Shown here: positions 21,212-45,919 of the stretch, piece after piece
Position numbering within the stretch: position 1 is the first letter of the stretch
Layout of the letters: every line of letters begins with the position of its first letter
From: Oceanospirillum beijerinckii DSM 7166
Lineage (GTDB): Bacteria > Pseudomonadota > Gammaproteobacteria > Pseudomonadales > Halomonadaceae
Length of the DNA stretch: 64,000 nucleotides
NCBI RefSeq assembly: GCF_000422425.1
Contig: NZ_KE383831.1
Span: 1-64,000 of the forward strand
Reading direction: 5' to 3'
Translations under genes and position numbers: made by a program
Notes under the pieces: generated by a model
What the model saw: only the letters and a program-made list of their open reading frames with translations
Database searches by the model: none
What the model was told of the DNA's origin: nothing

Positions 21212-24200
21212 TTATTCTTCTGGTTTCAGGTTAGCTAAATGCTCAACCGCGTCATGTAAACCCACACCCTGAGATGATTTGAAGAGTACAAGATCGTCTT
21301 TTTTCAGGAAGTTGGCCACCGCCCGTTTAATCATGGTGATATTTTTACGGAAATGGCTATTTACGCCTGCTTCTTTCAGCATGGGTTGGATTTTCTCCAT
21401 GCGATCACCGATTAAGAAGACCACTCGAGGATTCACCGCTTTGATCAAGGGTATCAGCGCTTCGTGTTCCTGGTCTGAAGCACCATAAGCATCTTGCATA
21501 TCGCCCAAAATAAGCAGTTTGCGTCGTGCTTTCTGGCTTCCAAGCGCTTGAAGCGATGCCTTCATCGAGCTAGGGTTAGCACTATAAGTGTCATCAATGA
21601 CGGTAAAAGGATCATCTTTGATGGTGAGCTGTAGTACTTCTCCACGGCTGGAAAGTGGTTGAAACAGGCTAAAGATGCCTTCTGCGGGTGCTCTTTGTAG
21701 CCCCAGAGCATAAGTGACACCTAAACAGGCCAGAGCATTCAGCGCCATATGAATCCCAGCACAATTCAGAACAAAGCGGGTTTCCTGATCGCTCACTTTG
21801 GCCGTCACAACCCCTGTATCAGGAGCGATATCTAACAGGCGAATATCACTGCCTTCGTGTTCACCAAAGGAGATAACTCGCAGAGATTTAGCTTCAGCTG
21901 CTTGTGAAACCGTATCCCACTCAGGCATATCCCGATTGATGACGGCATAGCTACCTGGGTCCATTGCCGCAAAGATTGATTGTGCTTCGCTGGCATTAAT
22001 CAATATCGCGATATCCGGTTTTACTACCGTTGAACTATGAGCTAAATCTCTAAGGGGTATTTCCAGAATAGTAAAGTCAGTATCCCAAGGCATAGAAGTG
22101 ATATGTTCTGCCAGATCTTTGGTTTGGGTCGCGTCGTGTCTGCTATGAGAAACTTTTCCGTATGGCGCTAAAGCTTGGCTTAACATCGCTAGCGTCGTTG
22201 TTTTACCCGCATTACCTGTAATGCCAATAGCTTTACCCAGTAGCTGTGCACGAGCATAAGCGGCCATCGACATCACTGCCTGATCAAGATCGAATACTTT
22301 TAATATTGGAATAGATGCAGCAAAAGCATCCAATGGCCAATCATCTTGAGTCAAGATAGCCTGGGCAGTGCAAGGAAGGCTCTCTATCTCTTGTTTTGAA
22401 AAATAGTTTTGTTGATCTTCAGAGCCAGCCACAACCATTTGGCCAGGCTGGAATATAGATGAATCAAGGCAAAGACCGGTCGCGCGCCAGTGATCGTTGC
22501 CTGGGGCTCGTAACCACTCACCCTCTGTTGCAGTTTCCAGTCGGCTGGCAGTCCAGTTAATGCCGCCGCTATAGTTTTTGGTGAAGCCTGCAGGCGCGTT
22601 TGATTCTGTTTCGGCTGATTCAACAGATGGGGTTACTTCTGAATCATCCAAAGCGCGCATTACCATATCCAGCTCTGCTTTCTCAAAATCAGAGATGGTT
22701 TCTTCAACATCAGTAGCGTCAAAGGGCTCTGGCTCAGCTTCATCAACTTCAGCCGCAGGAGCCTCAAGGGCTGCATCAAATTCAAGTATATCAACCACTT
22801 CGGTTTCAATATCTTGAGCTTCGGTTTCTAGTGTCTCGATTGCTTCAGGTTCAATTTCCTGACCCCCATCTTCTGGCGGTTCAGTAACATCAGGTTTCTC
22901 TTCCTGTATTTCAGCCTCAGGTGCAATGATAGTATCCGCTTCTCCCCCTAGTTCTTCTACTTCCGACTGATCAATGGTATCCCCTTGGGCTTCCTGAACT
23001 TCATTTTCAGATAGGTCTGGGGTTTCAAGTTCCGGTGTATCGATTACTTTGGTTTCAACCTCTTGGGTTTCAACCTCTTGGGTCTCAGCCTCTAGTGTAT
23101 CGACTGCTTCTGATTCAATTTCCTGCCCCTCAGACTCAAATGATTCAGGCTCTACTTCTTGAGTCTCTTCCTCTGGCGTATCGGTAACTTCAGACTTCTC
23201 TTCCTGTGTATCAGCTTCCAGAGCTTCGATAGTTTCAGACTCGACTTCCTGTGTATCCACTTCAGGTGCATGGATTACTTCTGACTGCCCGTCCAGAACT
23301 TCAGATTGATTGTCAGAGGCAGCGGGCAAAACGCTTTGCTCCTCAGATTGCAACGGATTCAAATAGTGGTTCAGGTATGCCACATAACCTGATAGGTAGT
23401 TTTCGACATCATCAATACGAACCCGAAAAGCGTGATGACGAATAAAGAAGCTACCAACAATCGTATTTGGGTTTCTAAAGAACATGGCGTATTCCGGCCA
23501 GAAATGCCCGTTCATCAGATAGTGAGCACGGTACTCCAAGGCTCGATAAAACTTATCAAGATCCAGCTGTTTCAGCAGATGATTGAATTCTGGCTGTTCT
23601 TTCAGATGTGTCACCATCTTGTGTGCAGCCATCATTAGCTCTAATAGCTCTGGCGACGTTGTAATACGCTGTTGGATAACATCCAGATAGTCCGCAACAT
23701 TTTGAATACCAAACTGGTAATAGCGTTCCTCAGGACGATATTGGACTAATTCATTGATGCAGTGACTAAGCCAATGGTCACGAGCACGCCAATGATCGGT
23801 TTTAATCAGGTAATCAAAGGCTTTTTCTACTATGTTTAGCCAGCGTTCATCCTTGGTTAAAGCATAGAAGCGCATTAAACTGAAGGCGGCTTCGCCGTCA
23901 TAGTAAATAATACGAACACCTTCTTTAACGGTTAATTCCGGGTAGCTTATCACGTGAATAAACTCGCCGTTATTTGGATCCTGCATATATTGGATGCCCA
24001 GAGCCAGGCGCTCCAGTAGAGGCCGGTATTGCTCGTCTCCCATTAACTCGATGTATTTTGTTAGTACCAACAGACTAACGGCATTACCACCCAGCTTAAT
24101 TTCATTATTTACTTCGATTAAAAAGGCCGCTTCAGTGCCATCACCTAAGGTGACATCTTTAATTAACTCTGAAGTCAGATAGTGTAAGGAGCGCTCAATA

Positions 24201-25006
24201 GCCGCTTTTAAAGCATCGTCCTGAGTAACTTCCCAGGCTTCCAGCATGGCATAGGTCGTGCTGATATGACGTAAGGTGTTGTAGGCATCGATTTGGCGGC
24301 CAAAGCAGGGGTGCCAGCCATAATTAAATTGCCCTGTTTCCTGTACTTGTCCCGCTAGATAATCACTGCTGCTTTGGATCATAGCACGGGTTTGTTCATC
24401 ACCCAGAGGGTAGATAATGCGGCGACCGGCATTCAGCCCCTGATCATGCAATAACAAAGGATCGCTATCTTCGGCACAGAATATGCCCTGAGTACTGAGG
24501 CGATAGACAGTTTTATCGTCAGAGAAATCTAACGTCAGCTGTTTGCCATAACGTCCACTGGCGTAGACAGTAAAGTTCTTTTCATTCAGTTGAGCATGCT
24601 GAACTTTATTACCCATAAACAAAGTAGCATTGGCATTCAGCTCCTGTTCCAGAAAAGCAAACTCCAGTTGATCATCTAACGCCAGGCCATAACGAAAATA
24701 GTTTCGTTTAGCCTGGGTAATCAACTGTTTCATGTTTTGCCAGGTGTACTCTTTCACCTCATTGACCCAATCAACTCTGAGCCAGCAGGGGGAAATATCA
24801 AACTGCTCGGCCAGTGCCAGCACCGCTTCATGGCCCTGTTCCCAGGCTTGTTCCAAGGTATCAGCAGATGTATTCACCACCTGAGCACGTTGCTCACCGT
24901 CACTAATGGAGAAGAACAGCGTGTAAGTAGGCCAGGGACTGTCTAATGGTCTGATGTGCTTAGTCAGTTCTGGTTGCAGTTTGTGCAGTAAAGTAGAAAG
25001 TGACAT
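21212..25006 (-). CDS. Fusion of an alpha/alpha-toroid domain, acidic repeat linker and MurF-like ligase
   Basis: One uninterrupted frame of 1264 residues. Residues 1-180 are unassigned. About 195-550 look like an alpha/alpha six-hairpin toroid (FNYGWHPCFGRQIDAYN, IIYYDGEAAFSLMRFY). About 555-802 are an acidic linker of degenerate repeats around TQEVESE/ETQEVE. About 805-1264 match the Mur ligase plan, closest to MurF: W-rich N-domain, P-loop GITGNAGKTTT, DDTYSANPSSMKASL, LILGDMQDAYGASDQEH and a C-domain ending FKSSQGVGLHDAVE. MurF joins a dipeptide to a UDP-sugar peptide using ATP. The usual NxxAH motif reads NASEAQ here, so the substrate probably differs. No signal peptide; stands alone between htpG and a chemoreceptor. 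It may attach amino acids to a sugar-containing substrate (inference). Confidence 0.85.
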   Translation of the reverse strand: MSLSTLLHKLQPELTKHIRPLDSPWPTYTLFFSISDGEQRAQVVNTSADTLEQAWEQGHEAVLALAEQFDISPCWLRVDWVNEVKEYTWQNMKQLITQAKRNYFRYGLALDDQLEFAFLEQELNANATLFMGNKVQHAQLNEKNFTVYASGRYGKQLTLDFSDDKTVYRLSTQGIFCAEDSDPLLLHDQGLNAGRRIIYPLGDEQTRAMIQSSSDYLAGQVQETGQFNYGWHPCFGRQIDAYNTLRHISTTYAMLEAWEVTQDDALKAAIERSLHYLTSELIKDVTLGDGTEAAFLIEVNNEIKLGGNAVSLLVLTKYIELMGDEQYRPLLERLALGIQYMQDPNNGEFIHVISYPELTVKEGVRIIYYDGEAAFSLMRFYALTKDERWLNIVEKAFDYLIKTDHWRARDHWLSHCINELVQYRPEERYYQFGIQNVADYLDVIQQRITTSPELLELMMAAHKMVTHLKEQPEFNHLLKQLDLDKFYRALEYRAHYLMNGHFWPEYAMFFRNPNTIVGSFFIRHHAFRVRIDDVENYLSGYVAYLNHYLNPLQSEEQSVLPAASDNQSEVLDGQSEVIHAPEVDTQEVESETIEALEADTQEEKSEVTDTPEEETQEVEPESFESEGQEIESEAVDTLEAETQEVETQEVETKVIDTPELETPDLSENEVQEAQGDTIDQSEVEELGGEADTIIAPEAEIQEEKPDVTEPPEDGGQEIEPEAIETLETEAQDIETEVVDILEFDAALEAPAAEVDEAEPEPFDATDVEETISDFEKAELDMVMRALDDSEVTPSVESAETESNAPAGFTKNYSGGINWTASRLETATEGEWLRAPGNDHWRATGLCLDSSIFQPGQMVVAGSEDQQNYFSKQEIESLPCTAQAILTQDDWPLDAFAASIPILKVFDLDQAVMSMAAYARAQLLGKAIGITGNAGKTTTLAMLSQALAPYGKVSHSRHDATQTKDLAEHITSMPWDTDFTILEIPLRDLAHSSTVVKPDIAILINASEAQSIFAAMDPGSYAVINRDMPEWDTVSQAAEAKSLRVISFGEHEGSDIRLLDIAPDTGVVTAKVSDQETRFVLNCAGIHMALNALACLGVTYALGLQRAPAEGIFSLFQPLSSRGEVLQLTIKDDPFTVIDDTYSANPSSMKASLQALGSQKARRKLLILGDMQDAYGASDQEHEALIPLIKAVNPRVVFLIGDRMEKIQPMLKEAGVNSHFRKNITMIKRAVANFLKKDDLVLFKSSQGVGLHDAVEHLANLKPEE
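22600..23340 (-). repeat. Degenerate acidic coding repeats inside the fusion protein
   Basis: About 250 codons encode repeats of Glu/Thr/Val/Asp-rich units (e.g. ETQEVE, ALEADTQEEKSEVTD, DTPEEETQEVEPES). At the DNA level the plus strand shows repeated AACCTCTTGGGTTTC-like words (23050-23090), including an exact tandem of 15 bases. The array could change length by slippage. Confidence 0.75.
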
Positions 25007-25536
25007 CTGGCTTTTCCATCCAAGTTCATGCGTGATCTGCAGTCATTATTGCTGCCATTATCAGACCCGCGATGCTTTTCCAAAACTTTTCATAAGTGTA
25101 CCTGATCTCTTCGTGACAGGCATGAGTGGCCAACAAAATGATGATTTATCTGGCTTTTATGTATCCATTCAGGTGTTTTTTATATAGGTAACAAAATGTA
25201 TCTATAGACCAGATCAAGGCAGTATTACGGTGATGTTTTCTAAAATTTACACATTTCTCAGTTGATCATCTGGGTTAGCAGCATTTTTTATATTAGACTT
25301 TTGTTGTAAGAAATTGCCCGGACTTTAATGATCAGATGCAGGTTCTATTGCATGGGCAAAAGAAGAAAGGTGCATAAGCCATAACAGGTGCACGATTAAG
25401 TCTCAAATAAGCCCCAAGCAATACTTTTCGAACTGAATCTTCTTATTCCCCGGTGACTCACCAGAGGATATTGAGAAAGTCCTGTTTGGGTGCGAACTAC
25501 AACTAAAAAAGCACAGATTACCCCGGAGGTTACGTG
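25007..25536. other. 530-base intergenic region between divergent genes
   Basis: It must hold the promoters of the fusion gene (-) and the chemoreceptor (+). The one recognisable element is TAAAATTT (25241-25248), 12 bases, GTTGATCA (25261-25268), a weak resemblance to the flagellar sigma-28 promoter TAAAGTTT/GCCGATAA in chemoreceptor orientation. No gene is seen. Confidence 0.35.
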
Positions 25537-27426
25537 ATGACGTTAAAAAACAAAGTGTTGGCAGTGGTTTTACTGCCGGTACTTTTAGTCACACTGATTT
25601 TGACACTGATTAGCTATTCCGATCTGGAAAAAGAGATTGTAGGCTCCGTCGGTACAGACACGGAACGTTTAGTACATGATGCCAATATCACGATTGATGC
25701 CTGGTTTAATAACAAGATTGCTATCGTGGAGTCTTTTGCCCAGATATCCAGTCAGCAAGAACATCTGATGCCGCTAATTCTGCAAGCAGAAAAATCAGGC
25801 CGTTTTGATGTTTTCTATATCGCCAGGGAAGACGGTAGTTTTCTGTTCAGTAAGCCAGATATTCAAACCTATCTGGAAGAGAAGAAATTTGATCCCCGTG
25901 TACGACCTTGGTATATGGCCGCAAAACAGAAGAATGGCACTATCGTGACGGAGCCTTATGCGGATGCCAACTCAGGTCTATTGGTGCTGTCAGTCGCTAC
26001 ACCGGTAACCCATAACGGGCGCTTCAGTGCGGTAACCGCTGCTGACCTGGGGCTGTCTGAAGTGGTTGATACCGTGCGTAATATCAGTATCAGTAGTCAG
26101 GGATTCGCTATGCTCGTTGATGAAAGCGGCATTGTAGTCGCACACCCGGATAAAGCGCTGAGCATGCAACCCATCAGTCAGGTGGGCCGGGAGCTTGATC
26201 AGGCTCTGATACAAAAACTGGCGCAACAAAAACAGCTGGTGACTCAAAAGTTAAACGGTGTTGAGCATCTGATCCGTTTTGAGCAGGTAGGAAGCAGTCG
26301 TTTCTACGTTGGCGTCGCATTGGAAAAAGACGCAGTCATGGCTCCTCTGACTGAGTTGTTGATTAAAAATATTGTGGTTTCAATTGTATTGATTGCTCTG
26401 TCTGCCCTGATTGGCATGATGGTCGTGAGCCGAGTACTAAAACCATTGAGAGAGATCGGTAAAGCACTGGCAGAGATCGCCCTGGGTGAAGGTGATCTGA
26501 CTAAGCGCCTTAAGGTGACGACTAAAGATGAGATCGGTGTTTTAGCCGGTCACTTTAATCATTTTGTGGATTCCCTGAATAAAATTATTCGTGAAATCTC
26601 AGAACTATCGGTGAGTTTGCGTACGACATCCAATGACAGCGCTCAGGTAGCACAGCGTACCAGTGATGATGTGCAGAATCAGATGCAGGAAGTCGCTATG
26701 GTTGCAACTGCGGTCTCTCAGATGGCTACAGCAACCCAGGAAATTGCCAGTAACGCTGAAAATACAGCCACAGCAGCTCAGCAGTGTGCAGCGGCCAGTA
26801 AGGAAGGTCAGACAGTGGTTGCCCATAGTCGCAGCTCAATCGAAAATCTGGCAGGGCAAGTACAAAACGCAGCGGATGTCATTGATCGCCTTAGCGAACA
26901 TGCTCAGCAGATTAATACTATTCTGTCGACGATTCAGGATATTGCAGAGCAGACAAACTTATTGGCGCTGAACGCCGCTATTGAAGCAGCTCGGGCCGGA
27001 GAACAAGGCCGTGGTTTTGCGGTAGTCGCGGATGAAGTACGTGTTCTGTCACAGCGTACCCATCAATCCACGGAAGAGATTCAGGAGATGATTATCAGCC
27101 TGCAAAAAGCATCTGCGGATGCAGTCAGTATTATGAGCAAAAGCCAGGAGCAGGCAGGCATGAGTGTAGCAGAAGCCAGTGAGGCCTACGATAAACTGAT
27201 CTACATCACGGATGCCATCTCTCATATCAGTGATATGTCAACGCAAACCGCAGCAGCAACGGAAGAGCAAAGCCTGGTCAATACCAATATATCTGAAAAT
27301 ACTCAGCGCATCAGCGCAATTGCAGATCTGTTGGCCCAGGAGTCTGATCAGGCTAAAGAGCGGGCAGGTGAGCTGAATCGTTTGGCTGACCGCCTGCATG
27401 AACAGGTGCGTTTATTCAAGCTGTAA
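25537..27426 (+). CDS. Methyl-accepting chemotaxis protein with dCache-type sensor
   Basis: A 629-residue chemoreceptor: membrane helix (about 6-28), periplasmic double-Cache-like domain (about 35-270, with [26 protein letters not shown] and [17 protein letters not shown]), second helix (276-298), HAMP and the cytoplasmic signalling rod whose tip is the invariant [20 protein letters not shown]. dCache domains usually bind amino acids or other small metabolites. The ATG at 25537 is preferred over the GTG at 25534, because GGAGG ends 7 bases before it. No C-terminal CheR-docking pentapeptide is present. A terminator follows at 27482. Confidence 0.95.
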
Positions 27427-30017: not shown

Positions 30018-31709
30018 TTAATATTTAAAGCGACTGACCAGTGCTTTTAGCTCATGGGAAAGCTGTGTCAGACGGGCACTGTTTTCTGCGGCTTGCTCGG
30101 AAGCGGTCGCCGCTTCTTCAGACACATTGTTAATCGCCATGATATTCTGTTCGATCTCATTGGCTACAGCGCTTTGTTCTTCACTGGCGCTGGCAATTTG
30201 ATCGTTCATGGCCGTGATCTGGGCAACGGCACTGGCGATTGCATTAAGCGCCTCGTTGGCCGATTCCGCCTGAATAACGGTTTGCTGGGCGTGCTCGCAG
30301 CTCTTGGTCATCACCTGAACCGATGACGTTGTCCCGGTTTGCAGCTCCTCAATCACCTTCTGAATCTCTTCTGTGGCCTCCTGAGTACGACTGGCCAGGC
30401 TTCTGACCTCATCGGCTACCACCGCAAAACCACGCCCCTGCTCACCGGCACGGGCAGCTTCAATGGCTGCGTTCAGTGCCAACAGATTGGTTTGTTCAGC
30501 GATAGAGCGAATCACATTCACCATACCGGTAATATTTTCAGACTCTTCATCCAAACGACGAATCGCCGACATCGCCTGGTTGATATTGTCAGCTAACTGA
30601 TCAATATCACTGCGGGTGGCGTTCACCACTCTATGGCCATCTTCGGCTACGGCATTAGCCGTTTGGGCGGCCTGGGCAGCTTCTGCGGCATTTTTAGCCA
30701 CATCGGCTACGGTGGCGACCATCTCGTTAATCGCGGTAGCGGCCTGATTGGTCTCATGGGCCTGGCGCTCCAGACGTGCTCTGTTATCCGATGCCTGCTG
30801 CGTCATCGACTCTGCCGTGGTATTCAGAGAGTCACTGGTTTGCGCCATCTGACGCACCATATCGCGGATATGCCCTGTGAAGTGATTAAACGAGTGGGAC
30901 AAGTGCGTAATTTCATCATTGCCCTTCTCCACTAATTGAGCGGTCAGATCACCATCGCCTTTGGCAATCTCCTCCATGGCTTTGTTCAGATTATTCAGAC
31001 GACGCTGAATTACACGCTGGTAGACCAACCACAAACTGACCAGAGTGAGCAGCAACAGTCCAACGACCAGCAGCGTGATTTTGGCACTGGTAGCACGTCC
31101 CGCTTCCAACTGGTGACTGATATCGGTTGTCACTTCCAGTACACCCCGCACACCACCCATTTTCCAATCATTCTTGGGTGTATCCGGGTGACTGTTATGA
31201 CAGGCGACGCAAGCCTCTGCTGACATCGTATCGGCAATAGCCACCTTAACCAGATGGCGACCATTGTCCTCGAATTCTTCGACGATGGTGGCTCCTGGGG
31301 TATTACTCAGCTTATCCCAGGCGGAGCGCTCAAAGTCAGACAGGCGGCGATCCGCACGGTTAGGGAATGGATAGGCGCTGTACAGCTTGATTTCCAGCCC
31401 CTTCTCTTTCATCAAACCACTCAAGTCATGAATCATGGTTGCTGGCAGTGGTACTTTGTTAGGGTTTGACTTGTGGTCGCTGCCAGGTCTTAAATCATTA
31501 GACTTAACCACCTTCTTGATCACATTCTGTGTGTAGTACTGACGTATGGTTTTAAATTGATCAACAGTGGCTTGAGAGTTATTAATCACGCCGTCCATTA
31601 CGGTTCGATTAAGCTGGTAGGGGATAAAGAGGGCCAGTACCAGTGCGATCAGGGCAATAATAGCCACAATCGGTATGGCCATCTTGCCAAACAGGCCAAG
31701 GTTATTCAT
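30018..31709 (-). CDS. Methyl-accepting chemotaxis protein with a haem-type (Tll0287/DUF3365-like) sensor
   Basis: A 563-residue chemoreceptor: membrane helix (about 10-30), periplasmic domain of the DUF3365/Tll0287 type (about 35-205), second helix (about 213-235), HAMP and signalling rod with the invariant [20 protein letters not shown] tip. The sensor carries CVACH at residues 167-171, a c-type haem attachment motif, so it may sense redox state, oxygen or NO (inference). The ATG at 31709 is chosen because AAGGAG precedes it by 8 bases; an ATG 18 bases upstream lacks this. The gene is divergent from the SulP transporter. Confidence 0.93.
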
Positions 31710-32084
31710 GGGTAAAGCTCCTTGCAATGGAAGGTCTTAAGTCATTGAAAATATTATCGTTTAAATCGCAGCTCTTGTAGAGGTTTAATTGTTTTGCATC
31801 AAACGCAGAAAACTTTTTGACGAAATAAAAATCAGCCTTCAGTGTCACGTCACTTTAACCCTAGTTGGCTAGTCTGCAATTATCAATTTGACCCATTTCA
31901 CAGGGGGACAAATATTTCGATATTTTCTGTATCAAGGCGTCAGAAAGGATGGGATTACTTGCCCTGAAAACGGTTGTTTCGCTGCTCTAAAGCAGATGGG
32001 CTTTTGCACAAGCGAATGCCTTGCTGTAAAATCTTGCCCCCTTCCTATCCCCCCACACAGAATACAGCCCTTTAGAGGAAACAG
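31710..32084. other. Divergent intergenic region, no gene seen
   Basis: This 375-base stretch separates the haem chemoreceptor (-) from the SulP transporter (+) and must carry both promoters. I see no clear operator, repeat or RNA gene. A 72-codon frame from 31888 that runs into the transporter gene is probably chance. Confidence 0.4.
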
Positions 32085-43897: not shown

Positions 43898-45919
43898 ATG
43901 CTAGCAAACCTAGTTTATCCCGCCATTAAGCTGATGAATCGGCTGAGTTATGGCTATAAATTTCTTCTGATTAATATCCTGTTTGTGCTGCCTTTAATCG
44001 CACTGGCTTATCTGCAGTTGGCAGAATTGTCTAAGCAGCAAAATGTCACCCATAAAGAGCTGGATGGTATTCAGATTCTGCGTCAATCATTGAAGTTAAC
44101 CGAGGTCGCGGCGGAAATTCGCGACCTGCAGCTGATTCAAGGCAATGATGAATCTCTCACGCAAGAGATCACGCAGCAAAAACAGCAGTTCAGTCAGCTA
44201 CTGGATCGACTCAGTGACAACAGCCAACGACTGGATCAGGATGGAAAGGTTCAAAGCAATATTCAGAAACTGCGCGAGCAGTTACAGGAGCGCAGCAGCT
44301 ACCAAAGCACCAGCATCAATGTCGTGTTTAATAAGTATCAACGCTTAGTAGAAGGCAGCTGGAGCCTCACCAGGCAGTTCAGCCAACTGACGGGGCTATC
44401 CAGAGATAGTGACAATGCTAACTTTTTACTGATGAAGCTGACGTTGGATCAGCTTGAACCTATCTTAAAGCATCAAGGGCAGGTACGTAGCTACTCTGCA
44501 AAAGCAATACGGGCGGGGGCTATCAACTCGGCTCTCGCTAATGCACTAAACAGTTTGCTGGACGCATTAATTACCGATCAAAATCGTCTGGCTATCATTA
44601 TGTCGCCAATCCAATCAGATCAAGCGCATTATGGCCGTCATTTATTGGGTTTTGTTAATGCAATTCCCGAACAGTTAGAGCAAAGATTAAACCGCTTTGA
44701 GAATGACCTGCTGTTGGAAGAACAATTAGATCACGATTGGCAGACCTATTTTGAGCAGGAATCCGGGGCTCATCAGGCGATCTATCTGTTTATTGAACAG
44801 GCAGTCACCTTTGTTGAGCAAAACCTGCAGCAGCGTTTTGATGAACAAAATCAGAATTTTTATATGGTCTTGATCGGTGTGGTTGCCACCATCCTGATCA
44901 CTAATTACCTGATGCTGGGCTTTAATCTTTCCGTACGCCATGGTTTGCAGGAGATCTTAACCGCAACAGAGAAAGTGGCTCAGGGAGATCTGACCTGCCA
45001 GGTACAACTCAATAGCCGTGATGAGCTGGGACAATTTGCCAGCGAATTTAACCGGATGGCGGAACGTATGCGCAATCTGCTTGCCATGGTGAACACCACT
45101 GTTGCATCGGTGGCAGAACAAGCGGAATCCGTCAGCCATATCGCCAGTCAAAGCCATAGTTCAGTGGACGAGCAACATAAGCAGATTGAACGAGTGGCCA
45201 GTGCATTTAATCAGATGACCCGCAGTGCTCAGGAAATTGCCAACCAGACCCAAACCGCTTCTCAGCAATCCCGTGAAGTGGGTAGCAAAAGTCATCAGGG
45301 ACAATCGCTGGTACAAAATACCCTGACAGATATTAACCGTCTGTCATCGGATATTAATCAGGCCGTACATGTCATCCATAAACTGGAGCAAGATAGCAGC
45401 AATATCACTCAGGTACTGGATGTGATCAAAGGCATCGCGGAACAAACCAACCTACTGGCACTTAACGCAGCTATTGAAGCCGCTCGTGCCGGTGAACAAG
45501 GCCGGGGATTTGCCGTGGTGGCCGATGAAGTCAGAACTCTGGCTCAGCGCACCCAGAACTCCGCATCCGAGATTGAGCATATGATCATTCAACTGCAGGA
45601 AGGGGTTAATGGCGCTGTTGAGGCGATGCAGGTGAGCCACCAAAAAGCCAGTCAGACGGTGAGCAACTCCTCTGCGGTATCTGAAACCCTGAACCTGATC
45701 TCAGAGCATATCGAACAGATTGTGGATTTTAACAGCCAGATCGCGTCTGCCAGTGAAGAGCAGACCATGGTGTCGAACGAGATCGAACGGAATATCCACA
45801 GTATCTTCCAAGCGGCGAGTGATACGGCGTCAGGTGCAAATGATACCGTGAATGCGTGTCAGCATATGCTGCAACAAACCCAGGAACTGAAAAGCCGGGT
45901 CAGTACGTTTAAAACCTGA
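43898..45919 (+). CDS. Methyl-accepting chemotaxis protein with large helical (NIT-like) sensor
   Basis: A 673-residue chemoreceptor with membrane helices at about 22-42 and 319-343. The periplasmic domain is unusually long (about 275 residues) and wholly helical, with two bundle-like halves; [19 protein letters not shown] resembles nitrate/nitrite-sensing (NIT) domains, so that is a possible class (inference). HAMP ([16 protein letters not shown]) and the signalling tip [20 protein letters not shown] (about 514) follow. AGGG lies 7 bases before the ATG. A stem-loop at 45966-45996 separates it from the convergent hutG gene. Confidence 0.92.

Follow-up and report, generated by a model that had tools for sequence, protein, structure and literature searches.

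What does a protein do that carries an (alpha/alpha) toroid in one half and a MurF-like ligase in the other? This question is raised by a gene of Oceanospirillum beijerinckii DSM 7166 located at positions 21212–25006 of the 64,000-nucleotide stretch analyzed here (the window; contig NZ_KE383831.1, positions 1 to 64,000). A first-pass annotation had described its product as a single protein joining both domains through an acidic linker, and had suggested that the halves work on one sugar-peptide substrate, perhaps outside peptidoglycan synthesis. Sequence comparison places the toroid in a widespread family that has no name, and the larger finding is this family together with its tie to (Asp-X)n tracts, i.e., runs of Asp-X pairs in large surface proteins. 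A role outside peptidoglycan synthesis is probable, and, since the family is tied to these tracts, a sugar-peptide is probably not the substrate.

A tract was scored when an open reading frame (ORF) in the flank examined had 10 or more Asp-X pairs in a row, where X is Ala, Ser, Gly, Thr or Asn. On genome contigs, toroid relatives were present at no fewer than 575 of 595 candidate stretches; the best 80 named loci, i.e., the closest relatives, were kept, and the locus counts describe that part of the family. A tract was found in 42 of the 80 loci, an HlyD-like gene in 50 and either of them in 62. Among the loci of at least 19 kb (n = 51), the numbers were 29, 40 and 42, respectively. Twenty control regions of 20 kb, set at fixed positions in five genomes with a toroid gene, contained neither a tract nor an HlyD-like gene (0/20 each; Fisher's test for the tract, 4.6e-6). 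In 60 tract-bearing loci, the median distance from the tract to the toroid gene was 717 bp, and 19 of these loci had a gap of less than 400 bp. The first 11 plasmid loci included nine with an (Asp-Ala)n or (Ser-Asp)n tract.

On plasmids of Agrobacterium, Nitratireductor and Klebsiella, the toroid gene came after the genes for TolC, an ABC exporter, HlyD and a large surface protein annotated as BapA-type, 'clumping factor' or hypothetical. The link spans more than one phylum: in the records read of Staphylococcus, Listeria and Enterococcus, the toroid gene directly followed the gene of a tract-bearing surface protein, which in Listeria is presumably lmo1799. The tract proteins of Listeria and Staphylococcus carried an LPXTG-type motif, the Staphylococcus tract frame being unannotated in its record. 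The constant tract residue was Asp; its partners were Ala, Ser, Thr (674 pairs in locus L193, beside a distant toroid) and Gly (88 pairs in L057).

The N-terminal half of the protein was recovered in 54 of 72,556 plasmid records, as well as in 15 of 398 genomes of a phylum sample and 5 of 58 near relatives (own genome included in both). A profile search of a class sample yielded 9 of 369 genomes (own included), most of the others being distant or partial, and a different query yielded 7 of 345 genomes in one other order. A phage gene was considered and rejected: only 8 of 50,697 phage records contained this half, six of the eight without annotation, and a scan of viral contigs confirmed 0 of 54 stretches.

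In the phylum sample of 398 genomes, 34 had BapA_N adhesins, and two of these 34 belonged to the 15 with a toroid (G166; G097, under the cut-off). Of the 32 genomes without a toroid hit, 17 were sampled at 19 BapA_N places, chosen for their better scores. None of these places contained a tract (0/19), at least one long frame among them (L225) being cut by the stretch taken. The BapA_N place in toroid-bearing G166, in contrast, contained a run of 952 pairs. Thus, in the places read, the toroid follows the tract rather than the adhesin head, and a general partnership with BapA adhesins was not supported.

The window gene is encoded on the minus strand; frame 1 of the plus strand was stop-rich across 21212–25006. 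The predicted frame of 1264 codons proved to be real, with an ATG start, a stop and no internal stop. It comprises the following parts, numbered by amino acid (aa) and with model confidence given as predicted local distance difference test (pLDDT):

21212..25006, minus strand: whole gene, 1264 aa, with N-terminal domain, toroid, acidic linker and MurF-like ligase
24407..25006, minus strand: N-terminal alpha/beta domain, aa 1–200, fold not recognised (model pLDDT 94.0; no PDB match at E <= 0.001)
23360..24400, minus strand: (alpha/alpha) toroid, aa ~203–549 (model pLDDT 92.9; GH76/AGE-type toroids in Foldseek)
22556..23311, minus strand: acidic linker, aa 566–817, 252 residues (from composition)
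21716..22222, minus strand: Mur ligase middle domain, aa 929–1097, P-loop kept (PF08245, 3.6e-15)
21980..21997, minus strand: NASEAQ, aa 1004–1009, Gln at the Mg-His position, the next 15 residues of the relatives missing
21272..21619, minus strand: Mur ligase C-terminal domain, aa 1130–1245 (PF02875, 2.3e-14)

The motifs named in the first-pass annotation were located at aa 928–938 (GITGNAGKTTT), 1004–1009 (NASEAQ), 1138–1148 (DDTYSANPSSM) and 1167–1175 (LGDMQDAYG). The linker had been described correctly for the window copy, being about 250 residues long and acidic (Asp + Glu 34%, Lys + Arg 2%; composition over 253 residues), but a long linker is not present in the nearest relatives. The window protein exceeds the paralogue in the same genome (1133 aa) by 131 residues and the protein of Oceanospirillum sanctuarii (1059 aa) by 205. 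The linker is not itself an (Asp-X)n tract.

The genome has a size of 5.3 Mb and is 99% complete; the gene lies on its contig C14. O. sanctuarii encodes the same two-domain protein at the same position between matching neighbours, which we take, from the sequence alone, to be htpG and a chemotaxis receptor. Since there is this syntenic copy and a second copy in the own genome, a false ORF was ruled out. Three proteins of the window (25534–27426, 30018–31727 and 43898–45919), likewise presumed to be chemotaxis receptors from their sequences, have related counterparts in O. sanctuarii.

The proposed toroid fold was borne out by modeling. The AlphaFold2 model of aa 1–560, built with 52 relatives, reached a pLDDT of 92.9 and a predicted template modeling score (pTM) of 0.91, and gave 129 PDB matches at E <= 0.001 in Foldseek. 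The 50 matches listed were GH76 mannanases, proteins of the N-acylglucosamine-2-epimerase (AGE) type, GH105/unsaturated glucuronyl hydrolases and similar toroids (Foldseek probability 1.0), with E-values of 1e-7 to 4e-5 and about 10% identity. Their template modeling (TM) scores were modest, with 0.34–0.66 by target length and 0.29–0.47 by model length, and the top match superposed poorly. For the N-terminal alpha/beta domain (aa 1–200, pLDDT 94.0), no PDB match was obtained at E <= 0.001.

For the window protein's N-terminal half, no Pfam match was obtained up to E = 1, and the only NCBIfam match was NF007619 (YceG), at 0.053. Profile comparison (hhalign) with twelve AGE sequences gave a probability of 1.5%. 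Some of 28 relatives showed weak matches to GH88 (five relatives), GH76 (two), GH127, C5-epimerase and cellobiose-epimerase. Membership in GH76 or AGE was rejected, since only the fold is shared and no family cut-off was passed. As modeled, the protein has a toroid fold outside the known toroid families. Two of the 28 relatives also matched a LanM model weakly. A likeness to YceG (MltG-type) over about 80 residues, at toroid aa ~436–526, was seen in eight of the 28 (best 7e-6); PDB entry 2r1f matched this stretch weakly (0.0053).

Several database names call such proteins poly(glycerol-phosphate) glucosyltransferase. This name was rejected, since the window protein has no glycosyltransferase domain and the toroid domains of the relatives (A1) match none. 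Fusions of a toroid to GT4, L037 for example, are the probable origin of the name.

The C-terminal half was confirmed as MurF-like in Pfam (Mur_ligase_M, 3.6e-15; Mur_ligase_C, 2.3e-14). These were the only Pfam domains of the window protein over the cut-offs; neither an ATP-grasp domain nor a glycosyltransferase domain, including GT4, was found in this search. With the MurF model TIGR01143, the protein scored 164.1 bits (164.3 in the own-genome search), under the cut-off of 288.6. The sole lead from PHROGs was a metallo-phosphoesterase at 0.0021, for the Mur half only.

In the first-pass annotation, NASEAQ in place of the usual NxxAH motif was taken as the sign of a different substrate. This was examined in a Mur alignment of 36 rows, comprising the window protein and 35 of 43 long matches, with the own murF as residue reference. 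The P-loop for ATP (GITGNAGKTTT) is kept in the window copy. A His, which we take to be the Mg ligand, was aligned in 31 of the 36 rows, and so was a Lys (31/36), presumably the carbamoylated Lys of the Mur ligase middle domain. At the His position the window copy has Gln, and a 15-residue gap spans the Lys position. With Gln in place of the Mg-His and with the 15 residues missing, the ligase of the window copy is probably non-catalytic. A changed substrate was rejected as the meaning of NASEAQ, since what the alignment reveals is a loss of catalytic residues.

The other four rows without His and Lys were from Variovorax (three) and Xenophilus (one), in which the P-loop Lys is gone too. These toroid-Mur proteins are found in L124, L126, L134 and L128, and the three of Variovorax still adjoin proteins with Asp-Ala (DA) tracts. 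The window copy kept 50 of 62 conserved Mur positions. For the remaining 35 rows the median was 97%, with L128 and L113 lying below the window copy. Over the N-terminal domain and toroid (aa 1–560), it kept 177 of 193 conserved positions (92%).

As expected in the first-pass annotation, the genome has a true murF elsewhere (G000:C2:163989–165281; 423 bits vs. the cut-off of 288.6). The paralogue lies about 60 kb from the window gene (G000:C14:82402–85803). It has kept the His/Lys motif of the ligase and is most likely the active enzyme. The 64-kb window contains no (Asp-X)n tract, so there is none within about 10 kb of the window gene. The nearest tract found belongs to a DA-repeat protein on the same contig (C14 ~93,898–98,370; L007:13898–18370), about 69 kb from the window gene and about 8 kb from the paralogue. 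This protein has at least 175 Asp-Ala pairs, its sequence being partly read as N. For the window gene, the most likely reading is that of a diverged or regulatory copy which works via its toroid, the target possibly being the DA-tract protein about 69 kb away.

Beside the DA-repeat protein, a member of a distant second toroid subfamily (619 aa, L007:11195–13054) and a separate Mur-like protein (481 aa, L007:9714–11159) are encoded. A further protein of this cluster was taken by eye for a peptidase and had no Pfam match. Between the paralogue and the cluster lies a gene for a protein kinase with TPR/Sel1 repeats and a weak GT9-like domain (L007:5988–8513). The distant toroid also occurs in L115 and L193, in loci with HlyD-like genes, and in L193 together with an (Asp-Thr)n protein.

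The part behind the toroid varied among the relatives. The modules were MurF-like, CapA plus Mur, YheC/D ATP-grasp, a triple ATP-grasp chain, GT4 (in L037 and L050), GT2, or a methyltransferase plus an aminoacyltransferase-like domain, or there was none; toroids whose flank showed no recognised module were common. Further forms were Mur proteins with an extra region of 400–500 residues and DD-carboxypeptidases added after Mur. The halves also exist as separate neighbouring genes, in Nitratireductor thuwali. In a quick tree of 114 toroids, from which L043, L044 and L059 were left out as repeats of L087, L116 and L061, 54 were labeled Mur, 30 alone/unclassified, 24 CapA with or without Mur, four ATP-grasp and two GT4. 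These five labels required at least 33 changes, compared to a shuffled mean of 51.7, with two long-branch joins flagged.

Module chemistry showed a trend to match the tract type. Tracts with a majority of Ser accompanied glycosyltransferase modules in 3 of 3 cases (L037, L050 and L110) and ligase modules in 2 of 41 (L045 and L073), the other 39 of 41 having Ala-Asp tracts; this statistic (Fisher p 7.6e-4) ignores relatedness, L037 and L050 are sisters and L110 was labeled glycosyltransferase by hand.

Other architectures were seen in single loci. A chain of 2391 residues in L113 (10001–17176) consists of toroid, CapA, Mur, acylphosphatase, VanY-type DD-peptidase and a second Mur. In L066 (11600–12328; E 0.0045) and L078 (11618–12316; 0.0057), aspartyl/asparaginyl-hydroxylase-like domains under the family cut-off are fused to the toroid, and Fic-like matches under the cut-off were seen in L060 and L054.

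Mur ligases and ATP-grasp enzymes have unrelated folds and share the same chemistry, in which an acyl phosphate formed on a carboxylate is attacked by an amine. The swap of Mur and ATP-grasp modules beside Asp tracts and the presence of glycosyltransferases beside Ser tracts point to the tract side chains as acceptors. It is proposed, with a probability of about 0.55, that the family serves surface proteins with (Asp-X)n tracts, the toroid recognising the tract before export and swappable modules modifying it. In the cytoplasm, the N-terminal domain and toroid would recognise an unfolded (Asp-Ala)n, (Asp-Ser)n, (Asp-Thr)n or (Asp-Gly)n tract. The module behind the toroid would be an interchangeable writer: Mur and ATP-grasp modules would turn the side-chain carboxylate of Asp into an acyl phosphate for coupling to an amine, and glycosyltransferase modules would act where the tract has Ser. 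For the ligases, the working model is cyanophycin synthetase, whose Mur-like M domain carries out such a reaction on poly-Asp. The tract protein would then leave the cell through a type I system in Gram-negatives or be wall-anchored in Gram-positives. As to the group attached, D-Ala-D-Ala as the amine donor is a guess, hinted at by the MurF likeness and the added DD-carboxypeptidases. The toroid may serve for docking only or be an enzyme; toroid-only loci and the copies with a dead ligase suggest that it does something by itself.

The proposal may be carried further, tentatively and at somewhat less than even odds, to a tailoring system like those of ribosomally synthesized and post-translationally modified peptides (RiPPs). 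Here, one constant toroid reader on ribosomal (Asp-X)n tracts would be combined with many swappable writers in Gram-negatives and Gram-positives alike; in the window copy, the reader would be joined to a dead writer. The ligases would amidate Asp side chains, giving a protein-borne, cyanophycin-like comb polymer, and glycosyltransferases would serve Ser-Asp tracts. Hydroxylases, methyltransferases and DD-peptidases are perhaps further writers.

Several observations weigh against tract modification as the family's function. The controls came from fixed places in toroid-bearing genomes and were not a random draw. No tract was present in the examined flank of 38 of the 80 loci, some of which were cut by contig ends, nor in 22 of the 51 loci that reach 19 kb or more, and the 80 are the closest relatives only. 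No (Asp-X)n run was found in L011 (Variovorax) or in L039 (Acinetobacter), the latter having a type I secretion system (T1SS)-target protein, and no tract protein adjoins the window copy. Two of the three glycosyltransferase cases are the sisters, several ligase loci are near-copies (Variovorax, Agrobacterium), and the ligase-type loci L045 and L073 have Ser tracts. Finally, the many toroids without a recognised module may mean that the toroid is a real enzyme, or that it is no enzyme.

The first of these alternatives, in which the toroid is the main enzyme (glycosidase-, epimerase- or transferase-like) on the tract or a tract-borne sugar and the modules extend or trim its product, is considered unlikely. 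It would account for the fold, which is that of sugar enzymes, for the many invariant His, Arg, Glu and Asp residues in the toroid, for module-less toroid genes beside a tract protein in Listeria, Enterococcus, Halopseudomonas and Falsochrobactrum, and for a toroid kept in the window, Variovorax and Xenophilus copies while ligase residues were lost. However, no family match passed a cut-off, and the comparison with AGE remained at 1.5%. The toroid might instead act in the cytoplasm as a chaperone or export pilot, holding the polyanionic tract in an unfolded state and delivering it to the secretion system without making a covalent change itself, as its frequent pairing with secretion genes and the toroids without a recognised module would allow. 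This is less likely still, since the fusion of at least seven unrelated enzyme types to the toroid is hard to explain in this way, and Gram-positive wall-anchored proteins, for which no type I system is needed, also have the toroid.

The substrate of the first-pass annotation, one sugar-peptide of a cell-wall-like pathway for both halves, appears very improbable. The MurF motifs, the frequent action of toroids on sugars, the DD-carboxypeptidase-type domains appended in L079, L103 and L113 and the weak likeness to YceG, a cell-wall protein, over about 80 residues of the toroid are consistent with it. However, the Mur half can be replaced by ATP-grasp, a glycosyltransferase or nothing, the genes adjoin adhesins in the annotated records read, and the genome has its true murF. 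For the window copy alone, a decaying duplicate without own function is a possible but doubtful explanation, and one that is compatible with tract modification by the family. It would fit the lost ligase residues with 50 of 62 Mur positions kept, the lack of a tract protein in the window and an end branch of 0.43 on the toroid tree, compared to a median of 0.22. However, the frame of 1264 codons is intact, 92% of the conserved positions of the N-terminal half are kept, and the position beside the same genes is retained in O. sanctuarii.

The partner family goes with the tracts and not with the type of adhesin, and it comes with ligases, glycosyltransferases and other enzymes, which suggests that the tracts are scaffolds for covalent decoration. 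If Mur ligases indeed act on exported proteins, a classical cell-wall enzyme family would be extended to protein modification. The view that the system is undescribed holds as far as the literature and database searches reach: a full-text search, with most subscription papers outside its scope, revealed no paper tying a toroid or a Mur ligase to (Asp-X)n tracts.

The window protein resembles MurF in Mur_ligase_M, Mur_ligase_C and the P-loop; unlike MurF, it scores under the cut-off, has lost the Mg-His and the carbamoyl-Lys, is fused to a toroid and coexists with a separate true murF. With GH76, AGE epimerases, GH88/105 and C5-epimerase it shares the toroid fold, but it has about 10% identity, passes no cut-off and carries an extra N-terminal domain. 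In the cyanophycin synthetase CphA1, a Mur-like M domain adds Arg to Asp side chains and an N domain binds the polymer via charged patches (PMC9262961). The likeness lies in Mur-ligase-like and ATP-grasp domains working on an Asp polymer. However, CphA1 builds its own poly-Asp backbone, whereas the Asp tract of the present system is made by the ribosome within an exported protein, and CphA1 unites ATP-grasp and Mur-like domains in one chain, whereas the window protein has no ATP-grasp domain. To our knowledge, CphA1 has no toroid.

The surface protein BapA of Paracoccus denitrificans, with 891 Asp-Ala repeats, is involved in biofilm (PMC5588039), and Listeria Lmo1799 is a surface protein with hundreds of Asp-Ala pairs (PMC8687577). 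They are the kind of protein adjoining the toroid family, and the available portions of both accounts mention no toroid or ligase partner. The nearest known kind of system is SdgA/SdgB, glycosyltransferases that act on the SD repeats of staphylococcal proteins (PMC7029136). SdgA/SdgB, like GtfC/GtfD and GtfA/GtfB, are reported to be dedicated enzymes encoded beside surface proteins, as is the case here; SdgA/B and GtfC/D act on Ser-Asp dipeptide tracts, and GT4-type modules are also found in the toroid family (L037 and L050). The SdgA/SdgB type consists of glycosyltransferases acting on Ser, whereas here a constant toroid is combined mostly with carboxylate-amine ligases and with Ala-Asp tracts that lack a hydroxyl. 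The gene arrangement is shared with SdgA/SdgB, and what is new is the architecture and the linkage to (Asp-X)n tracts.

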